NCBI GenBank assembly: GCA_029883965.1
Contig: JAOUIN010000003.1
Span: 1-32,447 of the forward strand
Origin: Betaproteobacteria bacterium
Lineage (GTDB): Bacteria; Pseudomonadota; Gammaproteobacteria; Burkholderiales; SG8-41
Length of the DNA: 32,447 bases
Direction: 5' to 3'
Made by a program: the position numbers and the translations under genes. The notes under the pieces are model-generated. The model saw only the letters and a program-made list of their open reading frames with translations, made no database searches and was not told where the DNA came from. How positions within the stretch are numbered: position 1 is the first letter of the stretch; every line of letters begins with the position of its first letter. Positions 5,227 to 23,703 of the stretch are shown here, piece by piece.

Positions 5227-6482
5227 CCCAGCCGGCGCGTCTGTCCTGGCGCGAGACGCTGGCCGCGGCATTCAGCGGGCGCATGCTGGTGGCGTTGCTG
5301 ATGGGTTTTGCGTCGGGGTTGCCCTTGCTGCTCACAGGGTCGGTGCTGCAGGCCTGGCTGAAAGACGGCGGTGTCGATCTGACACGCATCGGCCTGTTTG
5401 CGTTGATCGGGTTGCCGTACACGCTGAAGTTTCTCTGGTCCCCGTTGTTTGATCGTTACGCCCCGCCGTTGCTGGGCCGTCGCCGCGGCTGGCTGACCAT
5501 GATGCAGTTTGCCCTTGCCGCCGCGATATTCATGCTGAGTGCTGCCGAGCCGTCCCCGGAGCATTTGGGGCTGATCATGCTGGCCGGCCTGCTGGTGTCT
5601 TTTTTTTCCGCCTCTCAGGACATCGTCATCGATGCCTATCGCCGCGAGAGCATGGGGGAGGCCGAGCTTGGGCTCGGCTCTGCGCTTTACGTGAACGGAT
5701 ACCGGCTGGGCATGCTGCTTGCGGGCGGCGGCGGGTTGATCCTCGCGGACTGGCTTTCGTTCGAGACCATGTACCGGATCATGGCCGTGTGCATGGTCGC
5801 CTGCGTGGCGGTAACTCTGCTTGCGCCCGAGCCGCAGTTACCTGAAGGCAGGCCGCGAACACTGCATGAAGCCGTCGTGTTGCCGTTCCGGGACTATTTT
5901 TCTCGTCAGGGCGCCTGGCTGATCCTGGCATTTATTCTGCTCTACAAACTGGGCGATACCATGGCGTCGGCGATGACCACGCCGTTTTATCTGGATCTCG
6001 GTTACAGCAAGACCGAGATCGGCGCCGTCGTCAAACTGTTCGGTTTCTGGGCGACGATTGCCGGCGGTACGCTGGGCGGGCTGTGGATCCTGCGGGCCGG
6101 CATGCACCGTGCGCTGTGGGTTTTCGGATTCGGGCAGATGCTGTCTACGCTGGGTTTTGTCGTGCTGGCGTACTACCCGCTTAATGTGGGCGCACTGGCC
6201 GCTGTTGTTGCCATCGAGAATCTGACCGCCGGGATGGGCACCGCCGCATTCGTCGGATTCATGGCGGCACTGACGGACCGCCGCTTTACCGCGACGCAGT
6301 ACGCGCTGCTGTCGAGCCTGATGGGCGTGCCGCGGGTGCTGCTGGCCGCACCAACCGGCTGGTTTGCGCAATTACTGGGCTGGCCGGGATTCTTTCTGAT
6401 GTGCGTGCTGATCGCGATTCCCGGCCTCATGCTGCTGCGCAGGGTAACGCAGCTCGACGGGCAGCCTCAGCCACCGAAGTGA
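5223..6482 (+). CDS. ampG: AmpG-family MFS muropeptide permease
   Basis: MFS topology; MGFASGLPLLLTGSVLQAWLKDGGVDLTRIGLFALIGLPYTLKFLWSPLFDRY and SQDIVIDAYRRE are AmpG-like. Confidence 0.88.
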   Translation: MTQPARLSWRETLAAAFSGRMLVALLMGFASGLPLLLTGSVLQAWLKDGGVDLTRIGLFALIGLPYTLKFLWSPLFDRYAPPLLGRRRGWLTMMQFALAAAIFMLSAAEPSPEHLGLIMLAGLLVSFFSASQDIVIDAYRRESMGEAELGLGSALYVNGYRLGMLLAGGGGLILADWLSFETMYRIMAVCMVACVAVTLLAPEPQLPEGRPRTLHEAVVLPFRDYFSRQGAWLILAFILLYKLGDTMASAMTTPFYLDLGYSKTEIGAVVKLFGFWATIAGGTLGGLWILRAGMHRALWVFGFGQMLSTLGFVVLAYYPLNVGALAAVVAIENLTAGMGTAAFVGFMAALTDRRFTATQYALLSSLMGVPRVLLAAPTGWFAQLLGWPGFFLMCVLIAIPGLMLLRRVTQLDGQPQPPK

Positions 6483-7063
6483 TACACCGCCAGTTCGCCC
6501 AGAAGATTGGGCAGTGACGTAACCGGTTTTCCGTCCGTCAGCACGGTGCGTGCGACGATATTGATCCCGCGCTCGTCACAGAATTTTTCGAAATCGGAAA
6601 CCGTGCACAAATGGATGTTGGGCGTGTTGAACCATTCGAACGGCAGTTTTTTGGAAACCGGCATGTGTCCCAGCAACACCTGCACACGATTTTTCCAGTA
6701 GCCGAAATTCGGGAATGTGACGATGCCGGCCCTCCCGACCCGCAGCATTTCCTTCATGATGCGTTCGGTATTGCGCATCGCCTGCAGCGTTTGTGACAAC
6801 ACCACAAAATCGAACGAGTTGTCTTCAAATTCGGAAAGGCCGCGCTCCAGGTCGCTCTGAATGACGTTGACTCCGTTCTTCACGCAGGCCAGTATGTTGC
6901 CGTCGTCGATCTCGACGCCATAGCCGGTGATGTCGCGGGTCTGCTGCAGGTATTTCAGCAAAGTGCCGTCGCCGCACCCCAGATCGAGCACGTGTGCGTT
7001 GCGATGCACCGTCCGGGCAATCGCCGCAAAGTCCGGCCGTTGCGTGCCGTTAATTACGGTCAT
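6467..7063 (-). CDS. metW: Methionine biosynthesis protein MetW
   Basis: [58 protein letters not shown]; adjacent to metX with ATGA overlap. Confidence 0.95.
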
Positions 7064-8214
7064 GATTCAATTTCCCGGTGCACGCGTTCAAAATAGGCTG
7101 CCACCAGCCGGTGGTAGCGCGGGTCGTCGAGCAAAAACGCATCGTGGCCGTGTGGTGCATCGATTTCCGCATAGGTCACGCGCACGCGATTGTCGAGCAG
7201 CGCGTGCACGATCTCCCGTGAGCGTTCCGGTGAAAAGCGCCAGTCGGTGGCGAACGATATTACGAGTACGCTACTGGCTACCTTTTTCAGCGCCTTGGTC
7301 AGGTCGCCGCCATGCTCCAGGGCCGGATCGAAGTAGTCCAGAACCTTGGTGATACGCAGATACGTATTGGCATCAAAGTGATCCGCGAACTTGTTGCCCT
7401 GATGGCGCAGGTAGGACTCGATCTGAAATTCGGTGTCGAAGTTGTAATTGAGCTTGTCGTGCTTCAGCTGCCGGCCGAACTTGTTCGCCATCTCGTCGTC
7501 CGACAGATACGTGATGTGGCCGACCATGCGTGCGACGCGCAGACCGCGCTTGGGTGCCGTACCTTTGGCCAGGTAATGGCCATCGTTGAAATCAGGATCG
7601 GTGATGATCGCCTGACGGGCGACCTCGTTGAACGCAATGTTCTGTGCCGACAGGTTGGGTGCGCAGGCGATGACAATGCTGTGACGCAGGCGCTGCGGAT
7701 AGCGGATGGACCAGGCCAGTGCCTGCATGGCGCCGAGGCTGCCGCCCATGACTGCGGCAAACTGTGATATGCCCAGTTGATCTGCGAGCCGCGCCTGCGC
7801 ATCGACCCAGTCCTCCACGGTGATGACCGGGAAATCGCCGCCCCAGGTCCTGCCGGTGTCGGAGTTGACGCTCAGCGGCCCGGTCGAGCCGTGACAGCCG
7901 CCGATATTGTTGACGCCGATGACAAAGAACCTGCGGGTATCGAGCGGCTTGCCGGGCCCGATCATGTTGTCCCACCACCCCACGTTGTCAGGGGCGTCCG
8001 CGTAGTAGCCGGCTACATGATGTGATGCGTTGAGCGCATGGCAGACCAGTACGGCATTGGAACGGTCTGCGTTGAGTTCGCCATAGGTCTCGTAAACGAG
8101 TTCATAGTCGCGCAGTACCGTGCCGCCGCGCAGCACAAGCGGTTCCGCGAACCGCGCGGTCTGCGGCGTCACGACGCCAACCGAATTTTCCGGTTCTTTG
8201 ATCGATTCACGCAT
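7060..8214 (-). CDS. metX: Homoserine O-acyltransferase (acetyl- or succinyltransferase)
   Basis: [48 protein letters not shown] motifs of the alpha/beta-fold MetX family. Confidence 0.96.
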
Positions 8215-8219
8215 TTTCG

Positions 8220-8270
8220 TCAGCCATAAAAAAACCCCGCAGCCTGCGCTCCGGGGTCATGAGAATTCAT
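8220..8270 (-). CDS. Putative 16-codon leader [19 protein letters not shown] spanning the terminator and ending 5 nt before metX
   Basis: ATG at 8270, four nt after AAAGAG at the aptamer 3' end; TGA at 8222-8220; metX ATG at 8214. Confidence 0.35.
8228..8258 (-). terminator. Intrinsic terminator between the SAM-II-like aptamer and metX
   Basis: Minus strand ACCCCG-G-AGC-GCAG-GCT-G-CGGGGT followed by a run of seven T. Confidence 0.85.
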
Positions 8271-8274
8271 TCAT

Positions 8275-8325
8275 CTCTTTAGCCGGATTTATTACGCGCC
8301 CGCAAGCTGATTCAAATCGGCGCGA
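8275..8325 (-). ncRNA. SAM-II-like riboswitch aptamer upstream of metX
   Basis: Minus strand TCGCGCCGATTTGAATCAGCTTGCGGGCGCGTAATAAATCCGGCTAAAGAG. It shares GATTT, CTTGC, the P1 arms CGCGCC/GGCGCG, ATAAAT and GCTAAA with the SAM-II motif as recalled; upstream of a methionine gene. Confidence 0.85.
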
Positions 8326-8338
8326 AAACTGTGCAATT

Positions 8339-8367
8339 ACGTTACCTGCGCGGCGTTACCTTGTCAA
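8339..8367 (-). promoter_or_regulatory. Putative sigma-70 promoter of metX
   Basis: Minus strand TTGACA (8367-8362), 17-nt spacer, TAACGT (8344-8339); predicted start lies just upstream of the aptamer. -10 box is weak (3/6). Confidence 0.5.
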
Positions 8368-8384: not shown

Positions 8385-10112
8385 TCAGGCGTTGAGCTTG
8401 TCCAGCATGCTCCGAAGTTTGACCGGATCCGTGGCCTTGAGCATTTTCTTGGCGATGGGCCGGATATCGGGCAGACTCGTTTTGAGCACGCGCTGCTTGA
8501 CGTCGGGCAAGTGTGCGGAGTGCATGGACAGCCGCCGCAGGCCCAGCGCCAGCAGCAGCCTGGTCAGCGTCACATCGCCGGCCATTTCGCCGCAGACTGC
8601 GACGGGGATCTGCGCCTTGCCGGCGGTCGTGAATATGTGTGAGAGCAACGTCAATACGGCCGGGTGCAACGGATCATAGAGATGGGCCACGGTGTCGTCG
8701 GTGCGGTCGACTGCCAGCATGTACTGGATCAGGTCGTTCGTGCCTACAGAGAGAAAATCAAGGCGCTTCGTCAGCAGACCCAGGGCCAGCGCGGCGGCTG
8801 GTATTTCCACCATGCCGCCTATCTGGACATCGCGATCGTACGTAACGCCCTCGTCGTCCAGACTGCGCTTCGCCTGTTCGACCAGTTGCAGCGCCTGATC
8901 AATTTCGCTGGCATTCATCAGCATCGGGATCAGGATTTTCATGCTGCCGTAACTGGATGCCCGCAGCATGGCGCGCAACTGCGTGACGAAGCGTTTTGGT
9001 TCGGTCAGGCACAGACGGATCGCGCGCAGCCCCAGTGCCGGATTGGGCGCCAGGCGGGCGGTATCGTCAATCTGCTTGTCCGCACCTAGATCATAGGTCC
9101 GGATGGTGACCGGGTATCCCTGCATTTCCTCGAGAACCATGCGGTAGGCTTCGAATTGTTCGTCTTCGGTAGGCAGGTCGGGGCGGTTGAGGAACAGAAA
9201 TTCAGTCCGGAAGAGACCGATGCCGGTGGCGCCACTGTCAATTGCCAGCGCAACATCACCGGGCAGTTCGATATTCGCGTGCAGCTCGATGTCGGTGCCA
9301 TCCAGGGTGCGTGCCGGCGTATCGCGCAGTCGTTTGAGCTTCTGTCGCTCCAGGCCGAACTCACGCTGGCGCAACTGGTATTCGGCGAGCACCTGCGGAT
9401 CGGGATCGACGATGATCACGCCCTGTGTGCCATCGACGATGATGATTTCATTCTCGCGCACCAGCTGGCGTGCGTGGTGCAGCGCGACGATACAGGGGAT
9501 GTTGAGGCTGCGCGCCACAATGGCGGTATGAGATGTTGCCCCGCCCAGATCGGTTACGAAGCTGGCGAACTGGTGCTGCTTGAACAGGACGACGTCAGCC
9601 GGCGACAAGTCGTGTGCCACGAGCACAAGATTCCGGCCGGAGTCGCTTGCCGGCGGTGGTACGTAACCGGGCTGGCCCGAGAGCGCTTTCATGACGCGCT
9701 GCGCGACCTGAATGACATCGGTCCGGCGCTCCCGCAGATAAGTGTCTTCGATTGCGTCGAATTGCTGCAGCAACTCGTCGGTTTGCACCTGCAGCGCCCA
9801 TTCGGCATTGCAGTTCTCGGTTTCGATGATTTTTCGCGGCGTGATGGACAGCGTCGCATCGTTGAGGATCATCAGATGTAAGTCGATGAATGCGGCGAAC
9901 TCAGCCGGTGCGCCGGCGGGTACGACGCTGCGCACCTGATCGAGTTCGTTACGTACGGTATGCACGGCGCGCTCGAAACGCGCAATCTCTTCCGTCACTT
10001 GTTCCGCCGGGATGTCGTAATGCGCCGCTTCAAGTTTTGTGTGCGACACGAGGTGCGCGTGGCCGATTGCAATGCCACCCGAAACGCCGATGCCGTGTAT
10101 GGTGAAACTCAT
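8385..10112 (-). CDS. ptsI: Phosphoenolpyruvate-protein phosphotransferase (PTS enzyme I)
   Basis: GGATSHTAIVARSLNIPCIV active site; GIGLFRTEFLF; FLSVGTNDLIQYMLAVDR. Confidence 0.96.
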   Translation of the reverse strand: MSFTIHGIGVSGGIAIGHAHLVSHTKLEAAHYDIPAEQVTEEIARFERAVHTVRNELDQVRSVVPAGAPAEFAAFIDLHLMILNDATLSITPRKIIETENCNAEWALQVQTDELLQQFDAIEDTYLRERRTDVIQVAQRVMKALSGQPGYVPPPASDSGRNLVLVAHDLSPADVVLFKQHQFASFVTDLGGATSHTAIVARSLNIPCIVALHHARQLVRENEIIIVDGTQGVIIVDPDPQVLAEYQLRQREFGLERQKLKRLRDTPARTLDGTDIELHANIELPGDVALAIDSGATGIGLFRTEFLFLNRPDLPTEDEQFEAYRMVLEEMQGYPVTIRTYDLGADKQIDDTARLAPNPALGLRAIRLCLTEPKRFVTQLRAMLRASSYGSMKILIPMLMNASEIDQALQLVEQAKRSLDDEGVTYDRDVQIGGMVEIPAAALALGLLTKRLDFLSVGTNDLIQYMLAVDRTDDTVAHLYDPLHPAVLTLLSHIFTTAGKAQIPVAVCGEMAGDVTLTRLLLALGLRRLSMHSAHLPDVKQRVLKTSLPDIRPIAKKMLKATDPVKLRSMLDKLNA

Positions 10113-19998: not shown

Positions 19999-22900
19999 AT
20001 GACTTCCCGTATCCAGCAACTGCCCGCGCTGCTGTCGCGCCGCATCCTGATTCTCGACGGTGCGATGGGCACGATGATCCAGAATTACAAGCTGGACGAG
20101 GCCGCGTATCGTGGCACGCGTTTCAGGGATTTCGCACATGACGTCAAGGGCAACAATGATCTGCTGACGCTGACGCAACCGCAGATCATCCGCGAGATCC
20201 ATGAGCAGTATCTCGATGCCGGCGCGGACATCATCGAGACCAACACCTTCAACTCGACTTCAGTCGCCATGGCGGATTACCACATGGAAGACCTGGTGTA
20301 CGAGCTGAATGTCGAGGCGGCGAAGCTGGCACGCGCTGCCGCCGATGCCTATGAAGTCAAGGATCCGGCGCGGCCGCGGTTTGTCGCCGGCACGCTGGGG
20401 CCGACCAATCGTACCGCGTCCATTTCGCCGGACGTCAACGATCCGGGTTTCCGCAACACCAGTTTTGATGCGCTGGTTGCCGCATATACCGAGGCCGTGC
20501 GCGGCCTGGTCGATGGCGGTGCCGACTTGCTGATGGTCGAGACCATATTCGACACGCTCAACGCCAAGGCCGCATTGTTCGCAATCGACAGTTATTTTGA
20601 AACGCAAGGGGTGAACCTGCCGGTCATGATTTCCGGCACGATTACCGACGCATCCGGTCGCACCCTTTCAGGGCAGACGCCGGAGGCGTTCTGGAATTCA
20701 GTGCGTCACTCGCGACCCCTGAGCATCGGCCTCAATTGCGCGCTGGGGGCACAGCTGATGCGGCCCTACATCGAGGAAATTTCCACGGTCGCAGACACCT
20801 ATGTATGCGCATATCCGAATGCGGGTCTGCCGAATCCGCTGGCGCCGACCGGTTACGATGAACTGCCGGACGACACCGCGGCTTTCATCCTCGATTTTGC
20901 CAGGAGTGGATTCGTCAACATCGTCGGCGGCTGTTGCGGCACAACGCCGGCGCACATACGCGCCATGGCGCAGATTGTCAGCGGTGTGCCGCCGCGCAAA
21001 GTGCCGCAGATCGAGAAGAAAACCCGCTTGTCCGGGCTGGAGCCGCTGAACATCGGCGACGATTCGCTGTTCGTCAATGTCGGTGAACGCACCAATGTCA
21101 CCGGCTCCCGGGCGTTTGCCAAACTGATCCTCGCCGGTAACTACGCCGAAGCCGTGGCCGTCGCGCGCCAGCAGGTCGAGAGCGGCGCGCAGATCATCGA
21201 CGTCAACATGGATGAGGCCATGCTCGACTCGAAGGCGGCGATGACCACCTTCCTCAACCTGATCGCGTCCGAACCCGACATCTCGCGCGTTCCGGTAATG
21301 ATTGACTCGTCTAAATGGGAGGTCATCGAGGCCGGGCTGAAGTGCGTGCAGGGCAAGGCCGTCGTCAACTCGATCAGCATGAAGGAAGGTGTAGAGCCCT
21401 TCAAACAGCAGGCGAGGCTGGCGCGGCGTTACGGCGCCGCGGTCGTCGTGATGGCCTTTGACGAGCAGGGCCAGGCCGATACCTATGACCGCCGGATCCG
21501 CATTGCGAAGCAGGCCTACGACATCCTCGTCGACGAGGTCGGTTTCGCGCCGGAAGACATCATCATCGATCCGAACATATTCGCGATCGCCACCGGCATC
21601 GAGGAACACAACCGCTATGCCATCGATTTCATCGAGGCGACGCGCTGGATCCGCGAGAACCTGCGCTATGCGCGGGTCAGCGGCGGACTGTCCAATGTGT
21701 CGTTCTCGTTTCGCGGCAATGATCTGGTGCGCGAGGCCATCCATACCGCGTTTCTGTACCACGCGATCAAGGCCGGACTGACCATGGCCATCGTCAACGC
21801 CGGACAGCTCGGCGTTTATGACGAGATTCCGAAGGAACTGCTCGAGCACGTCGAAGACATCATTTTCAGCCGCCGGCCCGATGCAGCCGAGCGCATGGTG
21901 ACGTTTGCCGAGACCGTAAAAGGCAAGGGCAAGGTTGTCGTCGAAGATCTGGCCTGGCGCGATGCGCCGGTCGGCGAGCGGCTGACCCATGCACTGGTGC
22001 GCGGCATCACCAACTGGATTGTTGAAGACACCGAGGAGATGCGCCAGAAGATCGAGGCCGAAGGCGGGCGTCCGATCCAGGTCATCGAGGGGCCGCTGAT
22101 GGACGGCATGAATGTTGTCGGCGACCTGTTCGGCGCCGGCAAGATGTTCCTGCCCCAGGTGGTCAAATCGGCGCGAGTGATGAAGCAGGCGGTGGCGCAT
22201 CTGGTGCCGTACATCGAGGCCGAAAAGGCGCGTTCCGGCGACATCCGCGCCAAGGGCAAGATCGTGCTCGCCACGGTCAAGGGTGACGTACATGACATCG
22301 GCAAGAATATCGTCGCGGTGGTGCTCCAGTGCAACAACTATGAAGTGGTCAACCTGGGTGTCATGGTGCCGTGGAAACAGATTGCCGAGGTTGCCGTAAA
22401 GGAAAAGGCTGACATTATCGGCCTGTCCGGACTGATCACACCGTCATTGGAAGAGATGGCGCATAACGCCCGCGAAATGCAGCGCGCGGGCATGACGTTG
22501 CCGCTGCTGATCGGTGGTGCCACGACGTCGCGCGTGCATACCGCAGTGAAAATTGCGCCGCATTACCAGGGGCCGGTGGTGTGGGTGCCGGACGCGTCGC
22601 GCAGTGTCAGCGTGTGCTCCAGTCTGCTGTCGGATGACCAGAGCAAGGGTTACCTGAATGACGTCAAGGCCGAGTACGAGCGTATCCGCGAACAGCATGC
22701 GGGCAAGAAGGGGCCGGAACTGATTCCGCTGGCGGCCGCACGCGCCAACGCACTGCAGACGGACTGGAAAAACTATACGCCGCCGAAACCCGGGATGACC
22801 GGGCTGAAGCCGCTGAAGAACTATGATCTTGCTGAAATCGCCCGCCATATCGACTGGGCGCCTTTTTTCCAGACCTGGGATCTGGCGGGGCCGTATCCGG

Positions 22901-23703
22901 CGATACTCAAGGACCCGGTTGTCGGCGAGGAGGCGCGCAAAGTGCTTGCCGACGGACAGGCGATGCTGAAACAGATCATTGAGGGCCGCTGGCTGACCGC
23001 CAACGGCGTGTTCGGACTTTTTCCGGCGGCGCGTGTTGATCACGAAGACATTGCGATTTACGCCGATGAATCACGCAAGACGCCGCTGATGACCTGGCAT
23101 AACCTGCGCCAGCAGAACAAAAAGCCGAGCGGACGCGAGAACCAGTGCATCGCGGATTTTGTTGCGCCGCTGGAGTCGGGTGTTGCGGATTATGTCGGCG
23201 CTTTTGCTGTCACCGCCGGTCTCGGTATCGACAAGCGCATTGCGATGTTCGAGAAGCAGCACGACGACTATTCGGTGATCCTGCTGAAGGCGCTCGCGGA
23301 CCGGCTGGCCGAAGCGTTTGCGGAACTGCTGCATTTGCGCGTGCGTCGTGAGTTCTGGGGTTATGCCGGCGATGAATCATTGGGCAATGACGCGCTGATC
23401 GCCGAGAAATACCGCGGCATCCGGCCGGCGCCCGGTTATCCGGCGTGTCCGGACCATACCGAGAAGGGCGCACTGTTCGAGCTGCTGCAGGCGGGCCGTA
23501 TCGACATGCGGCTGACCGAATCCTTTGCCATGCTGCCGGCGTCGTCGGTCAGCGGATTCTATTTGTCGCACCCGCAGTCGCAATACTTTGCGGTGGGCAA
23601 GATCGACCGTGACCAGGTCGCCGATTACGCCCGGCGCAAAGGCATGCCTGTTGCGGACGTCGAGCGCTGGCTGGCGCCGGTGCTCGGTTATGAGCCCGCT
23701 TGA
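19999..23703 (+). CDS. metH: Cobalamin-dependent methionine synthase
   Basis: [71 protein letters not shown]; AdoMet-activation domain ending [16 protein letters not shown]. Confidence 0.98.

Follow-up and report, generated by a model that had tools for sequence, protein, structure and literature searches.

The window analysed here, a whole stretch of 32,447 nucleotides from a Burkholderiales MAG, carries on its minus strand the operon of metX (7060..8214), which encodes homoserine O-acyltransferase, and metW (6467..7063), which overlaps metX by 4 nt and matches Pfam PF07021 (MetW) with an E-value of 3.5e-70. The assignment of metX rests on the alpha/beta-hydrolase fold of its product, its position before metW and relatives that are 66-84% identical. 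Upstream of the operon, on the same strand, lies a SAM-II riboswitch at 8324-8273. The initial annotation had noted a SAM-II pattern upstream of metX in a neighbourhood that looked betaproteobacterial; the sequence that it quoted is indeed present at this place, and the pattern, the identity of the gene and the affiliation of the host were all borne out.

The SAM-II aptamer upstream of metX

Scanning of the entire 32-kb window against all Rfam 15 families with cmscan yielded RF00521 (SAM_alpha) as the sole family passing its cut-off. The match covers the full length of the model at 8333-8258 on the minus strand (36.8 bits against a cut-off of 36, E 5.6e-5), so that the covariance-model check proposed in the annotation came out positive, by a marginal score. 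Such a score is marginal yet typical of the group because only 54 of the 149 related genomes have a match over the cut-off; at E <= 0.001, RF00521 matches are found in 100 of them. The scores of the relatives (~25-45 bits) straddle the cut-off of 36, their lower values being attributable to the beta-proteobacterial flavour of the sequences. With R1, a covariance model of our own built from the L3-hairpin SAM-II loci described below, the window element scores 56.2 bits; the Rfam scan gave no match to RF01726.

Read along the minus strand, the element consists of the 5' arm of P1, GAUUUG, the AUC strand of the pseudoknot, UUGC, L3, GCUAAA and GAU. P1 is CGCGCC/GGCGCG (8324-8319/8300-8295), L3 is the A-rich UAAUAAAUCCG (8294-8284), P2a joins GC (8303-8302) to GC (8283-8282), and the P2b pseudoknot joins AUC (8311-8309) to GAU (8275-8273). 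The fully conserved SAM pocket has been described as U10-U12, U20, U21, G22, C23 and G42-A47, with G8 in the first triple (PMC3764141). Every one of these residues, including G8, is present in the window element, within GAUUU, UUGC and GCUAAA (G8318, UUU 8316-8314, UUGC 8305-8302, GCUAAA 8283-8278).

Of the 132 matches retrieved from relatives, 129 preserve the motif GATTTG..TTGC..GCTAAA unchanged, and the helices vary in a compensated manner. The outer pair of P1 is C-G, U-A, A-U or G-C; P1 as a whole reads CGUGCC/GGCACG in one related locus (L135) and CGUC/GACG in the metZ copies of Burkholderiaceae. For P2b, variants in the metX set include AUC/GAU, UUC/GAA and GUC/GAU. In 59 distinct metX leaders, P2b pair 2 is standard in 57 (53.2 in shuffles) and pair 3 in 46 (29.5 in shuffles), both exceeding all 2000 shuffles, which ignore relatedness. 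In the metZ set, pair 2 alone exceeds the shuffles, and P2b is weak in these copies. Comparison of relatives thus backs both P1 and the P2b pseudoknot by covariation, and the pairing that the annotation expected to be conserved in orthologous metX leaders is conserved. Its weak guess at the pseudoknot strands, AGCU/GGCU, had to be dropped, as covariation supports the register of P2a GC/GC and P2b AUC/GAU.

Judged by the RF00521 match over cut-off, the P2b covariation, the P1 variants, the published pocket list and R1, the window element is a genuine, ordinary SAM-II of already known type and a predicted SAM binder. It shares architecture (P1 and an H-type pseudoknot), pocket, targets and terminator platform with RF00521 and differs from that family in nothing essential beyond the sequence flavour that lowers the Rfam score. 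The annotation had presented the setting as a surprise for a class best known from Alphaproteobacteria; SAM-II in beta-proteobacteria, however, was already reported in 2005-2009 (PMC1273637, PMC2258182, PMC2704228), and Meyer 2009 described SAM-II as commonest in Alpha-, Beta- and Gammaproteobacteria, with one before metX in Pelagibacter (PMC2704228).

Expression platform and alternative readings

The aptamer is flanked by a likely sigma-70 promoter and an intrinsic terminator; neither these two features nor the second copy before metZ (see below) figured in the annotation. The promoter (8339..8367, minus strand) comprises a -35 box TTGACA (8367-8362), a 17-nt spacer and a -10 box TAACGT (8344-8339), matches the consensus at 9 of 12 positions and lies 14 nt before P1, and transcription would start a few nucleotides before P1. 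Promoter scores of 9-10 occur in 113 of 128 related leaders compared with 5 of 494 random stretches. The terminator (8228..8257, minus strand; fold -17.7 kcal/mol) consists of a hairpin at 8257-8234 and seven U's at 8234-8228; an intrinsic terminator likewise separates aptamer and gene in 119 of the 128 related leaders.

The proposed antiterminator (8240..8309, minus strand) would pair CAGCUUGCG (8309-8301) with CGCAGGCUG (8248-8240), with UCCGG (8287-8283) and CCGGA (8254-8250) as an added pairing. A complement of the aptamer segment GCUUGC is found in 75 of 106 leader terminators compared with 20 of 51 length-matched terminators taken from elsewhere in the retrieved loci (Fisher p 2e-4). GCUUGCG forms the centre of this complementarity, which extends to as many as 13 bp in one leader (L028); there, an aptamer change is compensated in the terminator (TCTGCTTGCG/CGCAAGCAGA). 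Energies of whole duplexes were uninformative, leader terminators being no better partners than other terminators; swapping terminators between leaders (51 of 106) did not show the own terminator to be the best partner of each leader. On the complete window leader, the terminator fold (-33.5 kcal/mol) is energetically better than the antiterminator fold (-27.3 kcal/mol), so that antitermination would have to be kinetic.

These features fit a simple scheme. With SAM bound, the UUGC strand would be held in P2, the terminator hairpin would form and the polymerase would stop before metX. With SAM scarce, CAGCUUGCG would base-pair with the terminator's loop and 3' arm while the leader is still being transcribed, resulting in read-through. 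We consider it very likely that the element is a riboswitch of the SAM-II class (RF00521) and switches metX-metW off at high SAM levels; transcription termination is the most likely mode, because an intrinsic terminator separates the aptamer from metX-metW.

Three other readings were weighed against this one. Control could be translational, with GGGG (8238-8235) serving as the Shine-Dalgarno sequence for a start at 8227 and being hidden by SAM-dependent folding. In sister species, the metX ATG directly follows the U-tract with GGGG just upstream, and translational control by SAM-II has been proposed for a Sargasso metagenome leader and studied for Sinorhizobium metA (PMC9373788). However, a tract of seven U's right after a strong hairpin is typical of termination, and the metZ copies of the same genus start past the terminator with an SD-like GGAG of their own, which makes this reading unlikely. 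A translational share alongside termination is conceivable.

More improbable still is a SAM-II-shaped RNA that binds SAH or another compound instead of SAM. The SAM/SAH riboswitch class does bind both compounds (PMC2864571), but the window element retains every pocket residue that has been reported, U11, U21, U44 and A47 among them, and metX and metZ are the targets expected for SAM feedback. The SAM-II of Agrobacterium binds SAM and rejects SAH (PMC1273637). As for a chance resemblance, with the terminator of the upstream gene for a PEP-utilising enzyme as the sole functional element, the marginal Rfam score and the end of that gene at 8385 could be cited in its favour. Conservation in relatives, P2b covariation and the specificity of R1 already refute it: R1 gives a single match just upstream of metX in the window and in 70 of 80 metX loci (32 of the 70 having been in its training set), and its scores fall from 24.3 bits to 13.6 bits for the next-best match, with none other above that value. 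Repression of metX-metW through SAM binding and termination thus stands as the preferred reading.

In the window, the U-tract is directly followed by an ATG that opens a frame of six codons only (MADENA, 8227-8207), which runs across the metX start at 8214; sister species begin metX at the ATG matching window position 8227. This short frame could be a genuine leader ORF, or it could reflect a frame change at the N-terminus or a mistake in the assembly.

SAM-II elements across Burkholderiales

The genome of the window contains a second SAM-II copy, before metZ on another contig. Among the 132 elements retrieved from relatives, the next gene is metX after 66 and metZ after 50, and 35 of 88 genomes carry both a metX and a metZ copy. 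Furthermore, SAM-II leaders followed by metH were found at six loci (L118, L156, L179, L194, L212, L240), the encoded MetH being 69-76% identical to that of the window; by this gene order, the predicted SAM-II regulon extends past metX and metZ. Rfam and own-model scans detected no SAM-II ahead of metH in the window itself (19999-23703).

Many metX leaders contain a SAM-II core with a hairpin inserted between the 3' strand of P1 and L3. This form occurs in Cupriavidus, Ralstonia, Burkholderia, Caballeronia, Paraburkholderia, Pandoraea, Undibacterium, Collimonas and Herbaspirillum (L048-L055 except L050, L057, L059-L061, L063-L066, L068-L071, L073-L076, L078-L081, L084-L091, L096, L100, L101, L104, L106, L110-L112). 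An apparent absence of SAM-II from the metX leaders of Cupriavidus, Burkholderia and most Undibacterium was overturned by a search that allowed for a long L3. The inserts of 43 loci fold with a mean z of -3.9, and each of the five pairs tested in the insert stem shows covariation. For P1 and the insert stem together, 87% of cells are paired compared with 72% after shuffling, and covariation is 0.340 compared with 0.107 in shuffled and <= 0.142 in slid controls. A further hairpin in L1 is seen in Herbaspirillum, Collimonas and two other loci (L059/L060). Rfam detects none of 20 such loci at its cut-off and none of 13 even at E <= 1. The form resembles RF01726, the SAM-II with long loops described from Bacteroidetes and marine samples, in its enlarged loops; RF01726 gave no match in 13 of the loci at E <= 1.

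In leaders of the Burkholderia group, the SD-like GGCGGA of metX is immediately preceded by a conserved 9-nt segment, UUUAGCCGC, which is exactly complementary to the pocket strand GCGGCUAAA (L063, L066, L068-L070, L073, L076, L081, L084, L086, L089-L091, L100, L110). This complementarity suggests an anti-aptamer translational switch in that group.

Applied to 400 Burkholderiales genomes, R1 detects SAM-II in 259, representing 121 of 164 genera; on the same genomes, RF00521 finds 65 over its cut-off and 170 at E <= 0.001. By these model matches, SAM-II is far commoner and more varied in beta-proteobacteria than databases list.

The survey bears on an RNA element already in the literature. Leyn 2014 describes 'metXZ' as a novel element of unknown effector that precedes metXW and metZ, has a pseudoknot and terminators and occurs in 35 genomes of beta-proteobacteria, and places SAM_alpha only in Rhizobiales and Rhodobacterales (PMC4239095). 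On the description in the text, metXZ agrees with the window SAM-II in genes (metXW/metZ), taxa and terminators, and its pseudoknot, which the text assigns to regions 1/4 and 2/6, fits P1 and P2b of SAM-II. That study covered Ralstonia and Burkholderia, whose metX leaders do contain SAM-II cores. From genes, taxa and topology as described there, metXZ is almost certainly SAM-II. We found no further open-access paper that links 'metXZ' with a riboswitch.

A similar case is RF02424 (Bp2_287), a Burkholderia sRNA family that matches the strand opposite the SAM-II core and terminator, with metZ downstream. It exceeds its cut-off in three genomes (203.9, 157.2 and 107.5 bits), where P1 of the SAM-II reads GCGUC/GACGC; in another genome (G149), RF02424 matches more weakly, at a place where RF00521 scores above its threshold on the opposite strand. 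At L243-L248, the RF02424 model lies opposite SAM-II leaders with their terminators, the gene being metZ in most cases. In the text of Khoo 2012, Bp2_287 is suggested as a cis-acting element of methionine metabolism, and SAM-II is not named (PMC3521395). Bp2_287 occupies the same DNA as the metZ SAM-II leader and terminator, with the Rfam model on the opposite strand; on this evidence we infer that RF02424 is modelled on the wrong strand, antisense to metZ SAM-II leaders.

A metK-type relative of SAM-II

In seven loci, a second SAM-II-like element lies downstream of a SAM-II and its terminator, and six of the seven have the core GA[G/U]UUAAnnGACAACUUGC or a close variant. This core also occurs singly, upstream of metK, in the pattern GA[G/U]UUAAnnGACAACUUGC...GCUAAAGCG. 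An alignment of 25 sequences shows P1, P2a and P2b in the SAM-II register and covarying: pairing is 92.5% compared with 87.7% in shuffled alignments, and covariation is 0.167 compared with 0.075 in shuffled and <= 0.053 in slid ones. At the position of U10, 14 of the 25 sequences have G, 10 have U and one has A, whereas the other listed pocket residues are kept, save G8 in one sequence.

No Rfam family, RF00521 included, matched the metK leader at E <= 5, while an SAH riboswitch elsewhere in the same loci was found. The second tandem element had been considered as a SAM_V; it matched neither this nor another Rfam family above chance. However, R1 cross-matches many metK-type elements (E 8e-10 to 0.05), and R2, a covariance model built from metK-type elements, matches the window SAM-II with 27.6 bits (E 3e-5). 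Because the two models cross-match, the metK-type element is, by sequence and predicted fold, a relative of SAM-II that is not filed as a member of RF00521.

Directly downstream of the R2 match lies metK in 34 of 50 inspected loci; in most of the remainder, the element is followed by a small ORF that begins M(Y/F)DC, together with a MATE transporter. In the genomes of 11 named organisms (Ralstonia, Cupriavidus, Paraburkholderia, Caballeronia, Pandoraea, Undibacterium, Collimonas, Piscinibacter, Herbaspirillum, Massilia, Rubrivivax), the element was detected before metK by R2 in every case, and it precedes metK in many Burkholderiales families (L251-L255, L260-L267, L269-L273, L275-L278, L280-L291, L293, L294, L297, L298, L300, L305, L306, L309, L313, L315-L320, L322-L325, L327-L335, L337-L340, L344). 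No metK-type element was found before metK in the window's own genome.

Tandem leaders, with SAM-II and terminator followed by the metK-type element, were recorded at L132, L164, L172, L177, L182, L203, L210, L292, L295, L296, L299, L301-L303, L307 and L310. In most of them, the small ORF (M(Y/F)DC..., about 95-114 aa) comes next, along with the MATE transporter. The tandem leader at L310 belongs to the window's own genus and has a different gene downstream. These loci resemble the Pelagibacter bhmt leader, in which two SAM-type pseudoknot RNAs (SAM-II/SAM-V) share one intergenic region (PMC2704228), in that two SAM-type elements occupy one leader; the second Burkholderiales element is not detected by the SAM_V model and keeps the SAM-II register.

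According to Leyn 2014, beta-proteobacterial metK is under no known methionine regulator, and their search for one failed (PMC4239095). In the open-access literature and Rfam 15, we found no prior description of the metK-type element, which is apparently an undescribed candidate metK riboswitch. Taken together, the comparisons probably point to a Burkholderiales family of SAM-II type that includes an uncatalogued metK-type subclass controlling metK and the small-ORF/MATE operon, sometimes in tandem with a SAM-II that has its own terminator; the substitution at U10 may shift which ligand is preferred, such as SAM or SAH.

Taken alone, the window element is one more ordinary SAM-II, and the wider survey carries the greater weight. 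It indicates that the public model misses most SAM-II of a large, well-studied bacterial order, and the orphan metXZ element probably gains its ligand. For metK, whose beta-proteobacterial regulation was reported as unknown in 2014, there is now a directly testable candidate riboswitch. If the metK-type element is such a switch, it and the L3-hairpin SAM-II would together place metX, metZ, metH and metK under SAM feedback, and the reported gap in the regulation of beta-proteobacterial metK would be closed.
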